From Lysobacter antibioticus HS124 (GTDB taxonomy: Bacteria > Pseudomonadota > Gammaproteobacteria > Xanthomonadales > Xanthomonadaceae): DNA of 42,032 nucleotides. The stretch spans positions 52,486-94,517 of the forward strand of contig NZ_HG424516.1 of NCBI RefSeq assembly GCF_000336385.2, in the 5' to 3' direction. The position numbers and the translations under genes are program-made. Shown one piece after another: positions 33,091 to 42,032 of this stretch; position 1 is the first letter of the stretch; the number at the start of each line of letters is the position of its first letter. The notes below the pieces were generated by a model, which was given only the letters and a program-made list of their open reading frames with translations, did no database searches and was not told where the DNA came from.

Positions 33091-33669
33091 GTGACGAAGG
33101 CCGCGCATTATCCCGGCAACACCGCTCCCGCGCCAGCGCGCGGCCCGCTGCCGTTGCCGGCGCTGGCCCTGGCCGCGGCCCTGAGCGCGCTGCTGGCGGG
33201 ATGCGGCGGCGGCCGCGAACTGGTCCGCAAGCCGGCCCCGCCGAGCGCCCCGATCCGGCACTGGCCGCACGTCCAGCCCGAGGACCCCGACTCCGCCAAT
33301 GCCGTGCTGATGCGCGCCATCAGCCTGGTCGGCACGCCCTACCGCTACGGCGGCAACACCCCGGACAGCGGCTTCGACTGCAGCGGCCTGGTCAACTACG
33401 TCTATCGCGACATGCTGGCCCTGAGCCTGCCGCGCACCTCGCGCGACCTGGCCGCCTACCAGGGCCCGCGGATCGAACCGACCCGGCTGGCCGCCGGCGA
33501 CCTGGTGTTCTTCGGCAGCCGCGGCAACGTCAGCCATGTCGGCATCTACGTCGGCGAAGGCCGTTTCGTCCACGCCCCCAGCACCGGCGGCACGGTTCGC
33601 CTGGACCGGCTCGACGGCCCTTATTGGGTCGATCACTACAGCGGCGCCAAGCGAGTGCTGAACAAGTGA
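33091..33669 (+). CDS. NlpC/P60 family lipoprotein endopeptidase
   Basis: A 192-residue cell-wall cysteine peptidase. The lipobox LLAGC gives lipidated C38 after a Pro/Ala-rich N-terminus. The NlpC/P60 domain (about 70-190) has GTPYRYGGNTPDSGFDCSGLV with catalytic C97, then H149 (NVSHVGIYVGEGRF) and H161 (FVHAPSTGG). Such enzymes cut the gamma-D-Glu-diaminopimelate bond in peptidoglycan stem peptides. The start is GTG 33091; no nearby ATG fits the lipoprotein signal. It is the first of two neighbouring paralogues, 150 nt apart on the same strand, and diverges from slyD. Confidence 0.9.
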   Translation: MTKAAHYPGNTAPAPARGPLPLPALALAAALSALLAGCGGGRELVRKPAPPSAPIRHWPHVQPEDPDSANAVLMRAISLVGTPYRYGGNTPDSGFDCSGLVNYVYRDMLALSLPRTSRDLAAYQGPRIEPTRLAAGDLVFFGSRGNVSHVGIYVGEGRFVHAPSTGGTVRLDRLDGPYWVDHYSGAKRVLNK

Positions 33670-33821: not shown

Positions 33822-34556
33822 GTGACGCCTCAATTCACTCGCCAACGCCGCCAGGCTGCTACCCCCGAAGCCCCCCTGGCCCAGAGCACCCGCACCGCTC
33901 GGGCTACCCAACGTCTCCTGCTCACCGCCGCGCTGGCGGTTTGCGCCCTTCCCGCTTTCGCCCAGTCCTCGACCGCCACCGGCCTGTCGATGGGCGCCCT
34001 GCCCGGCGGCCCCTCGCTGCGCAACGATTCGGCCGACGCGCCGGAGTCCACCGCCGGCAGCATGCTGCCGGAGGCGATGACCCTGTCCGACCGCGCGCTG
34101 CTGCTGGCCACCGACCTGAACCGCCTGCTCGGCCCGAACGCCAACCTGGGCAAGGCCGACCTGCCGGTCGCCGAACAGAGCCGGATCAAGAGCCTGCTGC
34201 AACGCGCCCTGGGCCTGCTCGGCACGCCCTACCGCTGGGGCGGCAGCAGCCCCGACCAGGGCTTCGATTGCAGCGGCCTGGTCGGCTACGTGTTCCGCAA
34301 CGCCCTGGGCATCGAACTGCCGCGCGTCTCGCGCGAGATGGCCAAGACCGGCGCAGTGATCGACCGCGCCTCGATGACCGAGGGCGACCTGGTGTTCTTC
34401 GGCCGCCGCGGCCGGGTCGACCATGTCGGCATCTACCTCGGCGACGGCCGCTTCGTCCACGCTCCGCGCACCGGCAAGGACGTCACCGTGTCCAGCCTGG
34501 ACACCGGCTACTGGAGCGGCAAGTTCATGGAAGCCCGCCGCGTCGACGGCATCTGA
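33822..34556 (+). CDS. Secreted NlpC/P60 family endopeptidase
   Basis: A 244-residue paralogue of the preceding gene. The N-terminus is long and basic, followed by a signal hydrophobic core (about 31-44) and a probable cleavage at AFA/QSS after residue 47. A linker of about 70 residues is followed by the NlpC/P60 domain with GTPYRWGGSSPDQGFDCSGLV (catalytic C150), H201 (RVDHVGIYLGDGRF) and H213 (FVHAPRTG). Unlike its neighbour it lacks a lipobox, so it should be soluble in the periplasm or outside. The start is GTG 33822, placed after the Clp-like promoter region. A strong terminator follows. Confidence 0.9.
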   Translation: MTPQFTRQRRQAATPEAPLAQSTRTARATQRLLLTAALAVCALPAFAQSSTATGLSMGALPGGPSLRNDSADAPESTAGSMLPEAMTLSDRALLLATDLNRLLGPNANLGKADLPVAEQSRIKSLLQRALGLLGTPYRWGGSSPDQGFDCSGLVGYVFRNALGIELPRVSREMAKTGAVIDRASMTEGDLVFFGRRGRVDHVGIYLGDGRFVHAPRTGKDVTVSSLDTGYWSGKFMEARRVDGI

Positions 34557-34579: not shown

Positions 34580-34610
34580 ACAAGCCGCCTTCGGGCGGCT
34601 TGTTCGTTTT
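34580..34610 (+). terminator. Rho-independent terminator after the second NlpC/P60 gene
   Basis: A 10-bp perfect stem ACAAGCCGCC/GGCGGCTTGT closed by a TTCG tetraloop (34580-34589 with 34594-34603) is followed by TCGTTTT. It starts 24 nt past the stop codon. Confidence 0.93.
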
Positions 34611-34660
34611 GGGGCCGCGGCGGCGCGATCGGCCGGTGGCGCCGTGGTTGCCAGGCCCGG

Positions 34661-35072
34661 GTCATGGCTTGCGCCGCTCCTACTCCCGCGACGGTTTCGG
34701 GCTTCGATCAATGGCGATGGCGTTGGTTTCTCTGCGCGTTCCGTGGTCGCGGCTTACGCCGCTCCTACAGGGAGACATGGGGAAGGACGCGGCGAGAGTG
34801 AAGGATGGCGGTCGCGGCTTGCGCCGCTCCTACTCCCGCGACGGTTTCGGGCTTCGATCAATGGCGATGGCGTTGGTTTCTCTGCGCGTCCCGTGGTCGC
34901 GGCTTACGCCGCTCCTACAGGGGCATGGGGCAAGGACGCGGCGAGAGTGGAGGATAGCGGTCGCGGCTTGCGCCGCTCCTGCTCCCGCGACGGTTTCGGG
35001 CTTCGATCAATGGCGATGGCGTTGGTTTCTCTGCGCGTCCCGTGGTCGCGGCTTACGCCGCTCCTACAGGGG
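34661..35072. repeat. Tandem array of a 150-bp unit built from paired REP-like palindromes
   Basis: Nearly three copies of a unit of 149-150 bp lie end to end. Each unit holds two versions of a 23-bp palindromic motif: one reads GTCGCGGCTTGCGCC and the other GTCGCGGCTTACGCC, both ending in GCTCCTAC-type sequence. The six motifs are at 34661-34683, 34746-34768, 34811-34833, 34896-34918, 34960-34982 and 35045-35067, spaced 85, 65, 85, 64 and 85 bp. The intervening sequences are nearly identical between copies, so the duplication looks recent. The gap 34611-35082 holds no gene. The family resembles the interspersed GTAGGAGCGGC-type REPs of Xanthomonadales and Pseudomonas. Confidence 0.88.
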
Positions 35073-35082
35073 GCGGTGCCGC

Positions 35083-35379
35083 TCAGCGCTCGATCAGGAT
35101 CAGCTTGCCGGTCTTGGGGTCGCGGTAGACCTGGCCGACCTCCTGGTAGCCCGGCCCGGCGCCCTGCTGCCCGCGATGCGGGCGCTCGATCGCCTTGCCG
35201 CGCGCGACCTCGACCGGAGTGCGCTGCGGCGTCACCGCGGTGATCGCGGCGAGCAGGCCGCAGGCGAACACCAGCATCACGTCGACCAGATTGACCAGGC
35301 TGGCGCGCGGGTCTTCGTCGTCGTGGTCGAAACGCGTGCGCAGCCGGCGCCGCGCCGCGCGCGAGGCGCGCACGCTCAT
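35083..35379 (-). CDS. DUF2149 protein, ExbD-like membrane partner
   Basis: A 98-residue protein with a basic cytoplasmic N-terminus, one membrane helix (about 28-47) and a short periplasmic tail. The helix reads LVNLVDVMLVFACGLLAAI; its VDVMLVF core matches the ExbD/TolR helix (FIDVMLVLL), with D33 at the position of the proton-carrying aspartate. The tail VGQVYRDPKTGKLILIER is the conserved DUF2149 end. Its ATG overlaps the stop of the ExbB-like gene by 4 nt. It is the last gene of the riboswitch operon, with the REP-like array just downstream. A role as force-transmitting partner is inferred. Confidence 0.8.
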   Translation of the reverse strand: MSVRASRAARRRLRTRFDHDDEDPRASLVNLVDVMLVFACGLLAAITAVTPQRTPVEVARGKAIERPHRGQQGAGPGYQEVGQVYRDPKTGKLILIER

Positions 35380-35819
35380 GCCGCCGCCTCCATGCGTTCG
35401 AGCAATTCCTCGTACCAGCGCCGGCGCAGGCGGCCGATCCACAGTCCGGCGATGCCGGCGATCAGGCCGAGCACGGTAGCGTCGAAGGCCACCGTGACCG
35501 CGCTGGCGAGCTGGGCCGGATCGCCCTGGCCGAGCGCGGCCAGGCCGGGGCCGAGCGGGATGATGGTCGCCATCAGGCCCAGCATCGGCGGCACCCGCGC
35601 CAGCAGATCGCAGCGCTCGACGCGCCGCCGCGCCAGGCGCTCGACCAGGGCCGGATCGCCGGCGCGCTCCAGCCGGCGCAGGCCCAGCCAGCGTTCGCCG
35701 ATCGCCAGGCCGGCCTCGATCAGGGCCGCGCCGCAGGCCGCCAACAGCACCGCCATCGCCACCGGCAACAGCCGCGCGATCAGGTGGTGCAGCCAGTCGA
35801 AATGCGTCATCCACTCCAT
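35376..35819 (-). CDS. MotA/TolQ/ExbB-type proton channel protein
   Basis: A 147-residue inner-membrane protein with three predicted helices (about 17-41, 72-94 and 106-130). The core RVPPMLGLMATIIPLGPGLAALG and AVTVAFDATVLGLIAGIAGLWIG aligns with ExbB/TolQ. T85 and T115 fall at the two pore threonines of ExbB (T148 and T181 in E. coli), by motif alignment. It is shorter than ExbB and lacks the long cytoplasmic insertion. It starts 64 nt after the CobN-like gene and is coupled to the DUF2149 gene. The three form one operon under the cobalamin riboswitch. Confidence 0.88.
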   Translation of the reverse strand: MEWMTHFDWLHHLIARLLPVAMAVLLAACGAALIEAGLAIGERWLGLRRLERAGDPALVERLARRRVERCDLLARVPPMLGLMATIIPLGPGLAALGQGDPAQLASAVTVAFDATVLGLIAGIAGLWIGRLRRRWYEELLERMEAAA

Positions 35820-35883
35820 CGTCGTCTTACCTCGTATTCGTTGACCTGGTCGATCGCGCGGCCGCAGCGGCCCGCGCTCTACG

Positions 35884-38800
35884 TCATCCCGCCCGCGCCG
35901 CCGGCACCGCCAGGCCGCGGCGCAGGCCGAAGCCGAGCAGCAGCGCGATCGCCAGCGCGATCAGCGCCGACGGCAGCGGATGGCGCTGGACCAGCGCCAC
36001 CGGCGCCAGGGTCGACAGTTCGCTGACGCGCGCGTTGCGCGCCGGCTCGGCCGGCTTGGCGGGCGCCGGCTTCGATTCGGGCGGCTTCGGCGCGGCCTGC
36101 GGCGCCGGCACGGGCGGCGACGGGCGATTCGATGCCGCGGCCGGGTCCGGCGCGGCCGCGGCCCGCATCGCCGCCTGCTGCGCGCGCGCGGTCTCGCCGC
36201 GTGCGAACGTCGACACCGCGCCGCGCTCGCCGCGCGCGCGCGCCAACACTTCGGCCACCTGCGCCTGCGCTGCCGGCGACAGCCGCGGTTGCAGCCAGCC
36301 CCACAACGGGTGGTCCGGCGCGGCGTGGCCGCTGCCCGGCAGGCCGTTGCGCGCGACCAGCGCGGCCAGTTGCTCGCCCAGGCGCGCGAGGTTGGCCTCG
36401 GGCGTCTTCCAATAGCCCTTCTGCGCCGCCACCAGCATCAGCGCCAGCATGTGCGCCTTGGCCTGCTGGGCGTGGCCGCGCTCGAGGAAGTCGGCGACGC
36501 CGAGGCGGTAGCGGTCGTCGAGGTAGACGCTCTGCACTTCGTCCCAGGCCCAGCCGTGGATCACGTCCGGCCGGGTCACCTGCCAGCCCCACAGGTTTTC
36601 CAGGAACTCCTGACTGACCGTGCGCGCGCCGGCATAGCCGTGTTTCATCAGCGGGCGGATCCAGGCGGGATTGAGGTAACGGCCGCGGAACTCGCGCAGC
36701 AGCGCGGCTTCCAGCGGCTCGACGTCGGCGCGCTCGGCGTCGGCGTTGTACAGCACCTGCGCCTGCGGCACGCGCCCGGTCAGGGTCTCCACCGCCAGCG
36801 ACAGGCCGCCGAAGTAGTCGAAGGCATCGTTGTTGTCGAGCAGGCCGTACAGGTGCGAGGCGCGGCCGTGGTAGCTGCGCTCGACCCGGCCCAGGCCGAT
36901 CTCGAACGCGCGGTGCGCGGCGCTGCCGTCGGCGTCGAGACCGTAGGCATGCCCCATGCGGTTGAGATAGGCGCGGCCGATCTGGCGCCGTTCGCTCCAG
37001 GCGCCGGAGCGCTCGGTGAGCCGATTGACGCCGGCGCCGTACGCGCCGGGCGCATCGCCGAACACCCGCCAGGCCGCCTCGCGGCCGGCGTCGGCCAACG
37101 GCACGCCCTGCGCGCGCAGGGCGTCGGTGCGCTGCAACCATTCGCGAGCGACGCCGTTGCCGGCCACCGCTTCCTCACCGAATTCGACCTGCTCGCCCAG
37201 CGGCGCCAGCGCCGCCGCCAAGGCCGGCGCCAACTCCGGCCGCTGCGCGCGCAGGGTCTTGGCGCTCGCCGCCAAGGCCAGGCGGCCGCCGCGGTCGAGC
37301 AACTGCACCAGGTTCGGATAGAGGTCGCGGAACAAGCCCGAGGTGGTGACGATGACGTCGCGGCGCGGCTGCCCCTGCGGCATCGGCTTGAGTTCCAGCC
37401 CCTGGACGATGCCGCGTGCGTTCCAGCGCGGCTGCACGCCCATCAGCGCCAGCGAGAAGCCGACCATGACGCCTTCGTCGCGCACCGCGTCGGACGCCCA
37501 CAACACCACGCCCTCGCTGCCGCTGCGGCCGTCGCTGCGCGCCAGCACCCGCGCCGCCTGTTCGGCGCCCAGGCGCTGCGCCAGCGGCGACGGCAGCACG
37601 TCGCCGTCGAGGCCATGGAAGTTGCGCCCGGTCGGCAGCGATTCCGGCGCGCGCAAAGGGTCGTTGCCCTTGCCCGGCCGGACGAAGCCGCCGTCCAGGC
37701 CGTGCAGCAGCGCGGCCATTTCCGCCGGCGGCGATTCGATCAGTTTGCCGCGCAGGGCCTCGCGTTCGCCCAGGCCGCGCATCGAGTCGAGCATCGTGTC
37801 GAGCTGGCCCGCATCCCAGGCCTGGCCGAACACGTGCAGGCCGTGCGGCATGAATTTTTCCTGCAGCTTGGTCAGGTAGTGGCCGATCTCGTGCGCGAGC
37901 AGGTCGTCGTCGGCCTGTTCGAAGCCGATCCCGCGCACCTTGAGCACGTCGGCCATGCTCGCTTCCAGTTCGGCGCGCAGCTGCAACGCCTCGACCTGGG
38001 CGCGCATCTCGCTCGCGGCCTGGGCGCGCAGCGGTTCGCTGCTGCTGCTCTCGAAGCTTTCGACCAATTGGCGCAGGGTCAGCAGGCGGTCGTACAGCGA
38101 GGTCGCCGCCAACGGCGGGGTCAGGTGATCGACCATCACCGCCAGGCCGCGGCGCTTGGCCTGGGTGCCTTCGCCGACGCCGTCGACGATGTAGGGATAA
38201 ATCCCGGGCACGTCGCCGGCGATCAGGCGCGAGTAATCGTCCTCGGCCAGGCCGACCGCCTTGCCGGGCAGGAACTCGTAAGTGGAATGGCGGCCGATGT
38301 GGACGATGGCGTCGGCGCGGAACACGTCGCGCAGCCAGTGGTAGTAAGCCAGGTACTGGTGCGGCGGCGGGATCTGGGTGTTGGCGTGCAGCAGTTCCTC
38401 GTCGACCTCCCAACCGCGCGGCGGCTGCGGGCCGATGAACACGTTGCCCAGGCGCAGGCCCGGCAGCACCACGGTGTCGTCGTGCACCATCACCCTGCCC
38501 GGCGCGCGGCCCCAGCCGCGCAGGCCCGGCACCTGCAGCGCCAGCAGGCGGCGCTGCGCGGCGCCGGCGTCGGCGCAGCTCGCTTCGGCCGCCGCGGCCT
38601 CGGCCTTGAGGCAGCGCAGATGGGCTTGGATCAGGTGGCGGAACTCGGCCAACGCCGTGTCGCGTGCCGGATGATCGATGCCTTCGAGCAGATGCAGCAG
38701 TTCGCGTTCGGCATCGCGCACCCGGCGTTCGCCGAGTTCGGTCTCGTGCGCGGCGCGCGCCAGCGCGACCTGCGCCTGCAGGCGCGCCAGCGGGCCGTCG

Positions 38801-40347
38801 CTGACCTCGCCCTGCACCGCCGCCGGCAGGGTCGCGAACCAGCGCCGATAGTCGTCGCCGGACAGGGTGGTCGCCTGGGCCGCCATCGCCGCCAGTTCGC
38901 CGCCGTCCTCGGGCGTGTTGACGCCGAGCTGCATCATCCGCTCGAGCAAGGCCTCCGGCGTGGCCGGCAGGTCGTCGATGCGATAGCCGTGGTCGCGCAT
39001 GGTCCGCAGCATGCCGTGCAGCGAAGCCGGCACGTCGAGGTTGTCGGCGCCGATGTTCTGCCGGCCGGGCGGGTGGTTGTAATAGATCAGGGCGATGCGC
39101 CGTTCGCTCGCCGGCTTGGCGCGCAGCGCGCGCCAGCGCCGGGCGCGCTCGACCAGGGCGCGCATCTCGCCGCTCAGCGGCTCGGGCCGCTGCAGGCGCA
39201 CCCCGGTCAGCGGATCGATGCGCGGCGCGCCGGCCGCGGCCAGCACCATCGGCTGGCTGCTGCCCTGCAGCTCCGACATCGCGACCCGGTACTGCACGCT
39301 GGAGGCCGGCAGGCCGTCGCCGGACAAACGCCATTGCGCTTGGCCGCGATCGAGCAGGCGGATCGCCTTGAACACCGGCACGTCGAGCGCGGCGATCGCG
39401 CGGGTCGCCGCGTCGCGGCCTTCGGCGGCGCCGACCACGAAGTCCTGCAGCACCACCAGCCCGGCCAGCGGCTGCGCGCCGAGCATGGCACGCAGGTTCT
39501 GCACCGCCTGCAGCGACGCCTCGCCCCAGCGTGCGTACAGCCCCAGGCAGGCCAGTCCCTGCGCCTGCGCTTGTGCGCACAGCGCGTCGCCGGTGGCGAC
39601 GTCGGCGTTGTTGAGGTCCAGCACCGCCAGCAGCGGCCGGGCATCGGCGGCCGGCGCGGCGACCGCCGCGCCGTTCTGGCGCAGCACCAGATCCGGCTGC
39701 GGCTGCGCCGCCGGCACCGCGCCGCCGTCGAGCAGAAAGGCGTAGCTGCGCTGCAGGTTGCGGTTGCCGCCTTCGCGCCACAGCGCGCGCAGGTCGAGCC
39801 ATTCGCCGGCGAAGGCGTCGCCGCGGGCGCGCCGGACCAGCTCGGGCGGCGGCGTTTCGGCGGTGACGCGGATCAGTTCGTCGGCGCTGAATGCGCCCAG
39901 GCCGTGACCTTCGCGATGGCTGGACTGGGTCAGGCCGGCTTCGCCGTGAAAGGCGTACAGGCGCTGCGGACCGCGTCCACGCTGACGCAACCAGGACGCC
40001 GCCTCGCGCAGGCGCACGCCCTGTTCGCCGAACAAGGCCACTGCGATCACCGCGTCGCTGCCGCCGACCAGTTCGCGCAGTTGCCCGCGATCCAGGGCTT
40101 CGAGCTGCTGCGGCGTGCGCAGCACGATGCGGTCGCCGGGTCGGGTCGCCAACAATTCGCGTGCGGCCTCGGCCGCTTCCGGCGCGGCGCGCTCGGAGAC
40201 TACGCCGAACACGGTCTTGGCCGGGGCGGCGGCGGCGAACGCCAGCAGGGCCGCGGCGCCCAAGGCGCGCCATCGGCGAGCGACCGCATGCCCAAGGACT
40301 CCGCGCTCACGGACACCACGCTCGACAACACCACGCGCAACACGCAT
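35884..40347 (-). CDS. cobN: CobN-like chelatase-family protein, predicted periplasmic and membrane-anchored
   Basis: A CobN/BchH-family protein of 1487 residues from ATG 40347, which has GAGG six bases upstream. A longer frame from GTG 40467 would put residues before the signal sequence and is unlikely. The N-terminus has a basic part then a hydrophobic core (WRALGAAALLAFAAAAPAK, about 26-44) typical of a signal peptide. The body keeps CobN hallmarks: NHPPGRQNIGADNLDVPASL (about 424-443) and the metal-site region VHIGRHSTYEFLPGK (about 682-696; H683, H687 and E691), then GEGTQAKRR and VDHLTPP. The usual GKHGxxEW is altered to GRHSTYEF. A Pro/Ala/Lys linker leads to a C-terminal helix (about 1460-1480). 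No CobS/CobT is nearby. Canonical cobalt insertion is therefore doubtful; see findings. Confidence 0.85.
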   Translation of the reverse strand: MRVARGVVERGVRERGVLGHAVARRWRALGAAALLAFAAAAPAKTVFGVVSERAAPEAAEAARELLATRPGDRIVLRTPQQLEALDRGQLRELVGGSDAVIAVALFGEQGVRLREAASWLRQRGRGPQRLYAFHGEAGLTQSSHREGHGLGAFSADELIRVTAETPPPELVRRARGDAFAGEWLDLRALWREGGNRNLQRSYAFLLDGGAVPAAQPQPDLVLRQNGAAVAAPAADARPLLAVLDLNNADVATGDALCAQAQAQGLACLGLYARWGEASLQAVQNLRAMLGAQPLAGLVVLQDFVVGAAEGRDAATRAIAALDVPVFKAIRLLDRGQAQWRLSGDGLPASSVQYRVAMSELQGSSQPMVLAAAGAPRIDPLTGVRLQRPEPLSGEMRALVERARRWRALRAKPASERRIALIYYNHPPGRQNIGADNLDVPASLHGMLRTMRDHGYRIDDLPATPEALLERMMQLGVNTPEDGGELAAMAAQATTLSGDDYRRWFATLPAAVQGEVSDGPLARLQAQVALARAAHETELGERRVRDAERELLHLLEGIDHPARDTALAEFRHLIQAHLRCLKAEAAAAEASCADAGAAQRRLLALQVPGLRGWGRAPGRVMVHDDTVVLPGLRLGNVFIGPQPPRGWEVDEELLHANTQIPPPHQYLAYYHWLRDVFRADAIVHIGRHSTYEFLPGKAVGLAEDDYSRLIAGDVPGIYPYIVDGVGEGTQAKRRGLAVMVDHLTPPLAATSLYDRLLTLRQLVESFESSSSEPLRAQAASEMRAQVEALQLRAELEASMADVLKVRGIGFEQADDDLLAHEIGHYLTKLQEKFMPHGLHVFGQAWDAGQLDTMLDSMRGLGEREALRGKLIESPPAEMAALLHGLDGGFVRPGKGNDPLRAPESLPTGRNFHGLDGDVLPSPLAQRLGAEQAARVLARSDGRSGSEGVVLWASDAVRDEGVMVGFSLALMGVQPRWNARGIVQGLELKPMPQGQPRRDVIVTTSGLFRDLYPNLVQLLDRGGRLALAASAKTLRAQRPELAPALAAALAPLGEQVEFGEEAVAGNGVAREWLQRTDALRAQGVPLADAGREAAWRVFGDAPGAYGAGVNRLTERSGAWSERRQIGRAYLNRMGHAYGLDADGSAAHRAFEIGLGRVERSYHGRASHLYGLLDNNDAFDYFGGLSLAVETLTGRVPQAQVLYNADAERADVEPLEAALLREFRGRYLNPAWIRPLMKHGYAGARTVSQEFLENLWGWQVTRPDVIHGWAWDEVQSVYLDDRYRLGVADFLERGHAQQAKAHMLALMLVAAQKGYWKTPEANLARLGEQLAALVARNGLPGSGHAAPDHPLWGWLQPRLSPAAQAQVAEVLARARGERGAVSTFARGETARAQQAAMRAAAAPDPAAASNRPSPPVPAPQAAPKPPESKPAPAKPAEPARNARVSELSTLAPVALVQRHPLPSALIALAIALLLGFGLRRGLAVPAARAG

Positions 40348-40477
40348 CGACGGCCTCGCTCGCCGCACGCCCTGTGCGGAGCTGGATGAAGGAGGCGAAC
40401 GACGGACGAAGAGACAGGCCACGGACCCGGTGCACAGGCGCGCGACGCCGCCCTCCGCGACGTCCACCGCGTACGCA

Positions 40478-40728
40478 CCGGCCGGTCTCCGGGCTTGCGG
40501 GGGCCGGGACGAACCCGGCGCATCGGCGCCTTCCCGGAGCGCAGGCTCCAGTGGCTGGGCGAGTGCGGGCGGTTCGCATCCACGCCGGACGCGACCGCCG
40601 GCCGTCGCCGACGTGCCGATGCTTTACCCGCCTACCGTTGCAGGGGCAGCGCCGGACTGGTCCGCAGCCTCGCGGACGCACCGGCTTCCCGTTTAACCGC
40701 GTCGCCGGAGGGCGAGGCGGCACCAGAT
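40478..40728 (-). promoter_or_regulatory. Cobalamin (AdoCbl-type) riboswitch
   Basis: Read on the minus strand, the leader contains GGTGCC (40724-40719), GGTTAAACGGGAA with GCCGGTG, GCTGCCCCTGCAACGG (centred at 40635-40646), a GCCACTGG segment near 40550, GGGAAGG, and the B12 box AAGCCCGGAGACCGGCC (40496-40480). The order and spacing are those of B12 riboswitches. It lies about 130 nt before the CobN-like start. No terminator-like hairpin with a T-run follows, so control is probably at translation. Region 40729-40942 upstream holds no gene and should carry the promoter. Confidence 0.95.
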
Positions 40729-40942
40729 GCAAAGCGCGCGCAATCTAGCACAGCGCGCCGGCACGGCGCGGACGCGGGAGTATGGAGACGGCGGCAGCGT
40801 GCCGAGCCGGTGGGCGCCGCGTCGGGCGTGCGGAGCCCATCCTCCCGCGCTGCGAACCCCGCTCAGCAACCCAGTTGCGCCGGGCGCTGGCCCACTCTTT
40901 CGAAGGGGGCGATCGATGACGCGCCGACTCCCCGCACGCCGC

Positions 40943-41437
40943 TCACCCCTCGTGCACGTAACGCTCGACCGTCGCCTCGATGCCCTTGCTGAGTTCCATG
41001 ATCTTCAGCGCGTACTCGGCCAGGCGCTTGTCGTCCTCGGTCAGCGGCGTCCACGCCGGCACCGGCGTCGGCTTGCCCTCGGCGTCCATCGCCACGAACA
41101 CGATCACGCAGTGGGTGCACAGGCGCTCTTCGGCCACGCCGTCGTCCAGGCCCGGGTCGCGCGCCTTCACGTCGACCGCGAAGTGCATGCTGCTGGTCCC
41201 GGTGTGGATCAGCTTGGTGTGCACGGTGACCAGGTCGCTGATCCGGATCGGCGCGACGAAGCGGATGCCGCCGACCGCGACGGTGACGCTGTACTTGCCG
41301 CTCCAGCCGACCGCGGCGGCGTAGCCGGCCTGGTCGATCCACTTCATCACCATGCCGCCGTGGACCTTGCCGCCGTAGTTGACGTCGGTCGGCTGGGCCA
41401 GGAAACGCAGGTTCAATTCGCGTTGCTGCCCTTTCAT
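40943..41437 (-). CDS. Acyl-CoA thioesterase (hotdog fold)
   Basis: A 164-residue single-hotdog thioesterase hydrolysing acyl-CoA to free acid and CoA. The signature is NYGGKVHGGMVMKWIDQAGYAAA (about 20-42), which includes the catalytic Asp, followed by GGIRFVAPIRISDLVTVHTKLIHTGTSSM. CTHCVIVFVAMDAEGKPTPVP is the usual second half. It resembles the cytosolic broad-range acyl-CoA thioesterases (YciA/BACH type). The start ATG at 41437 overlaps the stop of the FMN reductase gene by 4 nt, so the two are coupled. Chain-length preference cannot be read from sequence. Confidence 0.93.
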   Translation of the reverse strand: MKGQQRELNLRFLAQPTDVNYGGKVHGGMVMKWIDQAGYAAAVGWSGKYSVTVAVGGIRFVAPIRISDLVTVHTKLIHTGTSSMHFAVDVKARDPGLDDGVAEERLCTHCVIVFVAMDAEGKPTPVPAWTPLTEDDKRLAEYALKIMELSKGIEATVERYVHEG

Positions 41438-42032
41438 GCCCGGTCCTCCCGCACGACCTTGATATGCCGCACTACCGCCGCGCCGACCCGGTGCACCGCC
41501 GCGCGCTGGCGCTCGTCGCTCAGCTGGCCGTAGTCGGCGAGCTTGTCGCCGGCCTGGCCGACCGCGACCTGCTGCGGCACCACCAGCAGGCCGAGCTTGG
41601 CCAGCGCGTCGCGCAGCACCAGCAGCGAGCGCAGCCCGCCGAGCGGGCCCGGCGAGGCCGAGACGATGCCGGCGACCTTGTCGGCGAACAGCGCGGTACC
41701 GGAGCGGCCGTCCGCGAGCGGGCGCGAGATCCAGTCCAGAGTGTTCTTGACCAGGGCCGGCATCGAACCGTTGTACTCCGGCGTGCTGATCAGCAGGCCG
41801 TCGTGCTCGGCCATCAGCGCCTGCAGCCGGCGCGCGTTGTCGGGCATGGCCTCGGCTTCGATGTCGCCGTCGTAGATCGGCAACGCGTAGTCGCGCAGTT
41901 CGATCAGGGTCACTTCGGCGCCGGCGGCGCGCGCCCCCTCGGCCAGAACCGGGATCAGGCGGCGGTTGAAGGAGCCCTGGCGCAGGCTGCCGGCGAAAGC
42001 CAGCAGGCGCGGGGCGGCGGAAGGAATGGCGG
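41434..42032 (-). CDS. NADPH-dependent FMN reductase family protein (cut by window edge)
   Basis: About 198 C-terminal residues are visible; the frame is open to the right-hand edge, so the start lies outside or at the edge. A flavodoxin-like fold is clear: LLAFAGSLRQGSFNRRL is the FMN phosphate-binding loop, and ISTPEYNGSMPALVKNTLDWISRP is the flavin-contact motif. It also contains GIVSASPGPLGGLRSL. It belongs to the ArsH/YieF/ChrR-like azoreductase and quinone reductase group, with substrate unknown. It is coupled by a 4-nt overlap to the thioesterase. A GTG at 41913 is not the true start because the FMN loop lies upstream of it. Confidence 0.92.
   Translation of the reverse strand, partial: AIPSAAPRLLAFAGSLRQGSFNRRLIPVLAEGARAAGAEVTLIELRDYALPIYDGDIEAEAMPDNARRLQALMAEHDGLLISTPEYNGSMPALVKNTLDWISRPLADGRSGTALFADKVAGIVSASPGPLGGLRSLLVLRDALAKLGLLVVPQQVAVGQAGDKLADYGQLSDERQRAAVHRVGAAVVRHIKVVREDRA

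Follow-up and report, generated by a model that had tools for sequence, protein, structure and literature searches.

Proteins of the CobN fold have been described in several settings. CobN of CobNST is a cytoplasmic protein of the de novo pathway that works with AAA+ partners, and cobN is under B12 control. In Bacteroidota, HmuS, a published haem de-chelatase in which His538 is essential for turnover (PMC12583661), is encoded in the iron-regulated hmu locus, where CobN-like, ExbB-family and DUF2149 genes lie together (PMC10434189) and HmuY/HmuR is the receptor. Pseudomonas aeruginosa PA1922-PA1925 carries the same CobN-like, ExbB/D-like and DUF2149 trio, with a TonB receptor in the operon and Zur-linked zinc-starvation control (PMC4542158, PMC9431628). 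A third CobN type, the BtuS family, was predicted to act in metalloporphyrin salvage (Rodionov 2003 as quoted in PMC6460266); two of its members are predicted to be periplasmic, and the quoted text separates BtuS from B12-regulated CobN. Here we analyse an operon in a 42,032-nucleotide stretch of Lysobacter antibioticus HS124 (contig NZ_HG424516.1, positions 52,486 to 94,517; the window) that carries a trio like that of hmu, but lies behind a cobalamin (B12) riboswitch.

Comparison across species placed the operon in clade A, a well-delimited, conserved, B12-switched variant of HmuS/BtuS-like periplasmic chelatases with motor genes of its own. The literature that we searched, largely outside subscription journals, held no description of a B12-riboswitch clade or of a motor acting on a chelatase, and in published models the partners that resemble ExbB and DUF2149 serve TonB receptors or the transport of haem (PMC12583661, PMC4542158, PMC13227078). 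An older speculation, reported in PMC8620254, had Chlorobaculum chelatases whose genes adjoin that of a B12 receptor insert cobalt into exogenous cobalamin, and chelatase annotations occur in bacteria that lack most corrin genes (PMC6461909).

The operon and its CobN-fold protein

The features of the operon, all on the minus strand of the window, are as follows (ORF, open reading frame).

40463..40743, minus: cobalamin riboswitch aptamer RF00174, the operon leader (cmscan 41.7 bits, E 2.6e-7, model positions 1-189 of 189; gathering score 31.5)
40467-35884, minus: CobN-like ORF as listed; clade A, CobN-fold, predicted periplasmic and membrane-anchored (PF02514, 811 bits)
40347-35884, minus: probable true CobN-like gene, with ATG start
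40345..40347, minus: likely initiation codon (ATG) of the CobN-like gene, preceded by GAGG at a distance of 6 nt (direct reading of the sequence)
40207..40263, minus: N-terminal hydrophobic segment, the predicted signal peptide of the CobN-like protein (hydropathy)
38266..38304, minus: domain III motif VHIGRHSTYEFLP with His727 (alignment)
36805..36846, minus: domain V motif GLLDNNDAFDYFGG with Asp1214 (phmmer alignment with 9d26)
35923..35979, minus: predicted C-terminal transmembrane anchor of the CobN-like protein (hydropathy)
35376..35819, minus: ExbB/TolQ/MotA-like channel, 147 aa, three hydrophobic segments (PF01618, 36.1 bits, cut-off 22.9)
35083..35379, minus: DUF2149 protein, 98 aa, one transmembrane helix (PF09919, 38.1 bits, cut-off 27.1)

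A preliminary description of the window had placed a B12 box and core at 40480-40728, and the Rfam cobalamin model, named there beforehand as the check on that claim, matched over its full length. This was the only Rfam match above the gathering score in the 42-kb window and the only one at E <= 0.1 within 34600-41000. A search of 34900-41500 returned no terminator-like or sigma-70-like site, and the stretch 40500-40300 did not fold better than shuffled sequence (z 0.93; 166 of 200 shuffles were equally or more stable). The same description had recognised three co-directional genes, encoding a CobN-family protein with signal and anchor, an ExbB/TolQ-like channel and a DUF2149 protein, and each part of this was borne out: all three families were matched, the latter two over their cut-offs, the CobN-like protein has one hydrophobic segment per end, the gap between the CobN-like and ExbB-like genes is 64 nt, and the ExbB-like and DUF2149 ORFs overlap. 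The listed start of the CobN-like ORF had to be revised while the rest of the ORF stood. GTG 40467 falls within the riboswitch and GAGG precedes ATG 40347, so the ATG is the better start, giving a protein of about 1487 aa in place of 1527 codons. Residues are nevertheless numbered here from GTG 40467.

Gene content (PMC10434189) and structural comparison confirmed the likeness to the Bacteroidota hmu locus that the preliminary description had pointed out. An AlphaFold model of residues 240-1420 (mean predicted local distance difference test score 82.3, predicted TM score 0.80) found HmuS 9d26 as its best match in the PDB (E 1.8e-50, TM 0.69, root-mean-square deviation 10.2 A), followed by CobN 7c6o (TM 0.59) and ChlH (TM up to 0.57). 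A clade A profile run against the PDB ranked the families in the same order, with 519 bits for HmuS, 490 for CobN 9uk9 and 468 for ChlH 4zhj. Curated CobN cut-offs were not reached, neither for TIGR02257 (504 bits vs 822) nor for the four PRK05989 models and PRK12321. A hydrophobic segment is present at the N-terminus in 76 of 79 clade A rows, 19 of 20 rows of the adjoining clade B and 0 of 2 canonical CobN rows, and at the C-terminus in 74 of 79, 20 of 20 and 0 of 2, respectively. The protein thus shares with HmuS the fold, anchors at both ends, ExbB-like and DUF2149 partners (hmuT/U/V in Bacteroidota) and the superfamily histidine, and shares with CobN of CobNST the fold, the catalytic histidine motif and an aspartate in the domain V loop, but differs from the latter in its signal and anchor and in scoring below the CobN cut-offs.

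The conserved residues divide along the same lines. His727, in the clade-specific HxGRHS motif (HIGRHS), is kept in 80 of 80 clade A rows and is the equivalent of HmuS His538 (HxGxH), as matched by motif and not by a printed HmuS alignment. Asp1214 (DNNDAFDY) occupies the position of HmuS His1209 (LSLDHxxEFMGG) in the phmmer alignment with 9d26; the motif occurs in 80 of 80 clade A rows, an invariance that is partly due to selection, since DNNDAFDY served as a retrieval peptide. Its loop, DNND, resembles the DSND/DSDD of canonical CobN and not the LSLDH of HmuS. Clade A-specific residues compared with CobN and BchH (one row each) did not discriminate overall, and only the domain V loop was CobN-like. 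Neither His1209 nor the haem-site pair Met79/His254 of HmuS is kept in clade A: apart from M1, no methionine or histidine is invariant or near-invariant before residue 460 in an alignment of 27 sequences, in which HmuS was not aligned residue by residue. With regard to the Met-rich insertion of HmuS, methionine density reaches at most 10 per 120 residues, with a median of 6.5, in the 80 clade A rows (values for clade A alone). Separately, Cys297 and Cys307 (39579-39577 and 39549-39547) are near-invariant in clade A and not in clade B, and a periplasmic disulfide between them is possible in the neck domain.

The two small genes have features that suggest a proton motor. The ExbB-like protein has threonine at 99% in both its second and third hydrophobic segments, which we take to be the functional threonines of ExbB. 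In the DUF2149 protein, Asp33 is invariant in 80 of 80 sequences and lies at the start of the single helix (NLVDVMLVF). Pfam assigns this protein to DUF2149 only, and hhalign against ExbD/TolR set NLVDVMLVF on TPFIDVMLVLL in a weak match (9% probability, E 0.0036 for one comparison). No ordinary ExbD gene was found in the searched loci. The DUF2149 protein is a candidate minimal ExbD.

A conserved trio behind a clade-wide riboswitch

We scanned one genome per species, 84,980 species in all, with the CobN-like protein of the window and obtained 176 relatives, the best 80 of which were kept (L012-L091). Loci were fetched with peptides of the window protein, including DNNDAFDY; riboswitch and motor genes were not selected for. 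Profiles made from these sequences detected an ExbB-like gene within 2.6 kb after CobN in 81 of 81 cases (80 loci plus the window). A DUF2149 gene was detected in 80 of 81; the one locus without it, L054, is at the end of a contig. The trio is therefore conserved beyond the window. The 79 loci included in trees, with L090 omitted as short (the residue and topology counts also omit L054), comprise 41 betaproteobacteria, 33 gammaproteobacteria, 3 Nitrospirota and 2 Nitrospinota.

FastTree, run on 102 proteins, united the window with the 79 loci as clade A (support 100), adjoining a clade B of 20 proteins. IQ-TREE on 41 rows, rooted on BchH and supported by the Shimodaira-Hasegawa-like approximate likelihood ratio test only, gave 100 for A, 100 for B and 96 for A plus B, which stood apart from 2 canonical CobN and 6 BchH-like rows (both labelled by motif). 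Both trees thus place the window's protein in clade A and outside the cytoplasmic CobN clades, a placement there, with CobS/CobT encoded elsewhere in the genome, having been named in the preliminary description as an outcome contrary to its proposal, and clade A, with 79 loci besides the window, rules out that the operon is a lone oddity.

In clade B the typical gene order is receptor-CobN-ExbB-DUF2149, a likeness to hmu (PMC10434189) and to P. aeruginosa PA1922-PA1925 (PMC4542158, PMC9431628). A TonB receptor was recognised by eye in 18 of 20 rows within the stretch covered, and both motor genes were found with the clade A profiles in 15 of 20; the short flanks of the other five (L114, L119, L120, L121, L124) contained no motor genes. 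By gene order, and not by sequence comparison, PA1923 probably belongs here. Clade B (L103, L108, L111-L122 and others) splits at the HmuS His1209 position into HmuS-like DH rows (L103, L108) and DD rows, a difference that may mark haem vs non-haem substrates.

The riboswitch extends across clade A. All 18 clade A loci scanned with Rfam have a same-strand RF00174 match upstream. Twelve of these were negatives of our own regular-expression scan, which had suggested that about half of the clade had no switch (36/80); as Rfam found a switch in 12 of 12 such negatives scanned, the expression was too strict and that view was rejected. We then trained a nucleotide profile on 17 Rfam matches plus the window's switch and iterated it. 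With this profile, 72 of 80 loci showed a co-directional switch upstream, two of them by weak matches (E 2e-4; L078, L090); 42 of the switches lay <=420 nt from the CobN ORF and the other 30 at greater distances of up to 7 kb. Rfam added L087 for a total of 73 of 80, so that a B12 switch is common to clade A; 62 of the 80 loci were checked with the home-made profile and not with Rfam. The window's own switch was in the training set, leaving Rfam as the independent evidence for it. No upstream switch was found in seven of 80 loci, three near a contig start (L067, L074, L081) and four not (L076, L079, L085, L089); L079 and L089 carry one on the opposite strand. None of the 39 control loci (from clade B, CobN and BchH) was matched by the profile, nor was reversed sequence, although the control loci are a weak test: flanking sequence is limited to ~1-1.5 kb in 31, several repeat a place already sampled, and from L107 and L142 no CobN-like protein was recovered.

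Within the window's own order clade A looks rare. Its match pattern was seen in the window's genome alone among 200 genomes, while any PF02514 protein was found in 14 of 200; in the order of Methyloversatilis the pattern occurred in 5 of 300 genomes (centre included). RF00174-type switches are found in 192 of the 200 genomes, at 1-6 per genome among those listed. A horizontal gain seems likely. A search for DUF2149 found it in at least 8 of 200 genomes, a search that missed the window's own copy. One genome of the window's family (G106, L107) has a DUF2149 protein (92 bits) and an ExbB-like match with no PF02514 match in the genome, and represents either motor genes without CobN or a broken locus. 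PF02514 proteins whose match is split into two segments (about 2-605 and 672-1089), in contrast to clade A, occur in G276, G362, G523 and G004 and as a second copy in G213; that of G004 (L151) groups with the BchH-like rows in IQ-TREE.

Corrinoid genes in the host and around the trio

The host genome is a 5.14-Mb draft in which the window's CobN-like protein is the sole PF02514 protein found. It has six RF00174 matches in all, five of them outside the operon. One, on contig 12, leads BtuB, two BtuM-like proteins, BtuR, CbiA/CobB and CbiB; another on contig 12 leads a further TonB receptor with a PepSY-like protein (both named by eye); one on contig 33 leads a second BtuB; and the remaining switches lead metE and nrdA (contig 133; gene names by eye). 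Both BtuB proteins pass TIGR01779 (766 and 654 bits, cut-off 599.7) and CbiB is over its curated cut-off, while CobB scores 242 bits with TIGR00379, below the cut-off of 261.4. BtuR was named by eye. One of the two BtuM-like proteins matches PDB 8c7p, a 'cobalamin ABC transporter' that is presumably BtuM. The claim that there is no other cobalamin gene and no TonB receptor therefore holds for the window and fails for the genome.

A search of the host genome for CbiC (PF02570), the marker of corrin-ring synthesis and the one ring gene searched for, gave no match. CobS/CobT were not seen beside the trio in the window; no genome-wide search for them was made. With BtuB, BtuM-like, BtuR, CbiA and CbiB genes led by switches and no CbiC match, the host appears to be a corrinoid scavenger whose B12-starvation regulon includes the trio. 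The same holds for CbiC in most carriers, with no match in 41 of the 49 clade A genomes searched, the host included. CbiA/CobB exceeded the curated cut-off in 23 of the 49, the window's genome not being among them.

Contiguous gene runs containing the trio were scored at the 80 loci. BtuR occurred in 20, BtuB in 17, CbiA in 17, a BluB-like nitroreductase in 10, a BtuM-like protein in 9 and PepSY_TM in 5, counts that are lower bounds because gene calls were rough. The BtuR, CbiA, receptor, PepSY_TM and nitroreductase families were checked with Pfam on examples and the other neighbours labelled by eye. In 44 of 80 runs none of the scored receptor or B12 genes was present, showing that the motor genes travel with CobN. 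As they accompany CobN wherever it occurs and receptors do not, we have moderate confidence that the motor is coupled to the CobN-like protein and not to TonB receptors.

A PepSY-family protein is encoded between riboswitch and CobN in L063, L071 and L080, with PepSY_TM verified in L071 and L048, and a similar PepSY-like protein stands by a switch-led TonB receptor in the window's genome (L098, about 13-15 kb; by eye). It is possibly an inner-membrane reductase for a corrinoid.

Proposed corrinoid salvage and its alternatives

The clade-wide switch and the genes around it argue strongly for a corrin as the substrate, with low B12 likely the signal and corrinoids what is acted upon. We tentatively prefer, at somewhat less than an even chance, that the operon encodes a B12-repressed, proton-motive-force-powered corrinoid salvage machine with cobalt insertion as its chemistry. 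The CobN-fold protein would be exported by its signal, reside in the periplasm and be anchored C-terminally. A corrin imported by BtuB would be bound in the central cleft, flanked by His727 of domain III and Asp1214 of domain V, and ExbB with DUF2149 would form a minimal ExbBD-type proton motor acting on the CobN-fold protein. Because the periplasm has no adenosine triphosphate (ATP), this motor would do the work for which cytoplasmic relatives use an AAA+ motor run on ATP (CobS/CobT, ChlI/ChlD). Cobalt would enter incomplete or metal-free corrins, or re-metalate others, and the product would cross the inner membrane via BtuM or BtuCD to be finished by CbiA, BtuR, CbiB and lower-ligand enzymes. 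Scarcity of B12, the missing ring marker and the neighbouring finishing enzymes point to insertion or re-metalation, though weakly as to the direction in which metal moves. Less likely than not is the broader proposal that class I tetrapyrrole chelatases have a second, periplasmic energetic form, in which an ExbB/DUF2149 proton motor takes the place of the AAA+ ATPase, and that clade A is its corrin version, a cobalt chelatase driven by proton-motive force with which bacteria that lack ring synthesis turn metal-free or incomplete corrins into usable B12.

The usual account of B12 salvage runs from BtuB through BtuF/BtuCD or BtuM to cytoplasmic finishing enzymes. If true, salvage by this machine would mean that corrinoid trafficking includes a motor-coupled periplasmic step that has gone unrecognised, and would account for some of the 'CobN' annotations in genomes unable to make corrins. 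Alongside iron-regulated HmuS and zinc-regulated PA1923, it would suggest that proton-motor chelatases form a single family whose members are matched to their substrates by their regulators, and it would open the function of the uncharacterised hmuU/hmuV-type genes to direct test.

The finishing enzymes offer quantitative support for this reading: a full-length CbiA/CobB match is present in 34 of the 41 CbiC-negative clade A genomes, and a CbiA/CobB in the same score range in 37 of 232 CobN-free genomes (300-genome sample, one order). Several points weigh against cobalt insertion, beginning with the limits of this comparison, which ignores relatedness and includes some carriers that are draft metagenome assemblies, where absences are soft, and in which the background climbs to 82 of 232 once a second, higher-scoring CobB group is included. 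Seven of the 41 CbiC-negative carriers have no CbiA. In Zoogloea L018, CbiM, a tetrapyrrole methylase and CbiX (early cobalt insertion) follow the trio, and the genome has CbiC; the trio is thus retained even where cobalt is probably inserted early. A periplasmic cobalt chelatase would also have to work without the CobW metallochaperone while exposed to competing metals. Finally, the nearest characterised relative, HmuS, takes metal out as a purified protein (PMC12583661), and starvation for zinc or iron, a shortage of metal that could be released, induces related loci (PMC4542158, PMC10434189).

A live rival, somewhat less likely than cobalt insertion, is that no metal chemistry is involved and that the CobN-fold protein is a periplasmic corrinoid carrier, with the motor driving release from BtuB or delivery to the inner-membrane transporter. 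Such a hand-off is consistent with Methylophilaceae operons of the order BtuB-BtuM-BtuR-CbiA-CobN-ExbB-DUF2149 and with the host's BtuB and BtuM-like proteins behind B12 switches, but sits less well with the superfamily histidine, kept in every clade A row. The trio also occurs beside BtuC/BtuD genes (labels by eye), and so is not a simple stand-in for a missing binding protein. Published work lends the carrier idea some support: such a role was proposed for Porphyromonas gingivalis HmuS (PMC13227078), and protoporphyrin was still made from haem by a Bacteroides fragilis double mutant in two BtuS genes of the CobN-like type (PMC6460266).

By analogy with HmuS, the protein might instead be a corrinoid de-chelatase or metal exchanger that extracts metal from corrins, either to obtain cobalt or to remove corrins loaded with the wrong metal, which we consider improbable but a live rival. 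HmuS is the best structural and profile match, and the PepSY_TM proteins in 5 of 80 runs, members of a family that includes inner-membrane reductases, recall the reductive step reported for HmuS. However, repression by B12 would make destruction of cobamides counter-productive, and cobalt removal, an option raised in the preliminary description, fits poorly with such repression in an organism without a corrin-ring marker. In addition, HmuS His1209 is replaced by aspartate and the head and neck, the first-haem region of HmuS, have no invariant methionine or histidine.

Very unlikely is that ExbB/DUF2149 energises TonB-dependent receptors with CobN as a TonB-like link, a role given by their authors to PA1924 (PMC4542158) and HmuU/HmuV (PMC12583661) and in keeping with the receptors of clade B (18 of 20 rows, by eye), since the riboswitch directly precedes CobN in 42 of 80 clade A loci and the motor genes stay with CobN (ExbB 81/81, DUF2149 80/81) even though 44 of 80 runs have no scored receptor or B12 gene. 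Two further candidates were rejected as the leading explanation, a de novo cobaltochelatase by the lack of a CbiC match and scores under the curated CobN cut-offs, and a haem or zinc system by the riboswitch and the missing His1209.

The surroundings of the operon in the window have features of their own. Immediately downstream, at 34666-35072, a 149-bp unit is repeated in tandem (2.7 copies, 97% matches), and two neighbouring NlpC/P60 peptidase genes (33091-33669 and 33822-34556, plus strand) point toward the operon.

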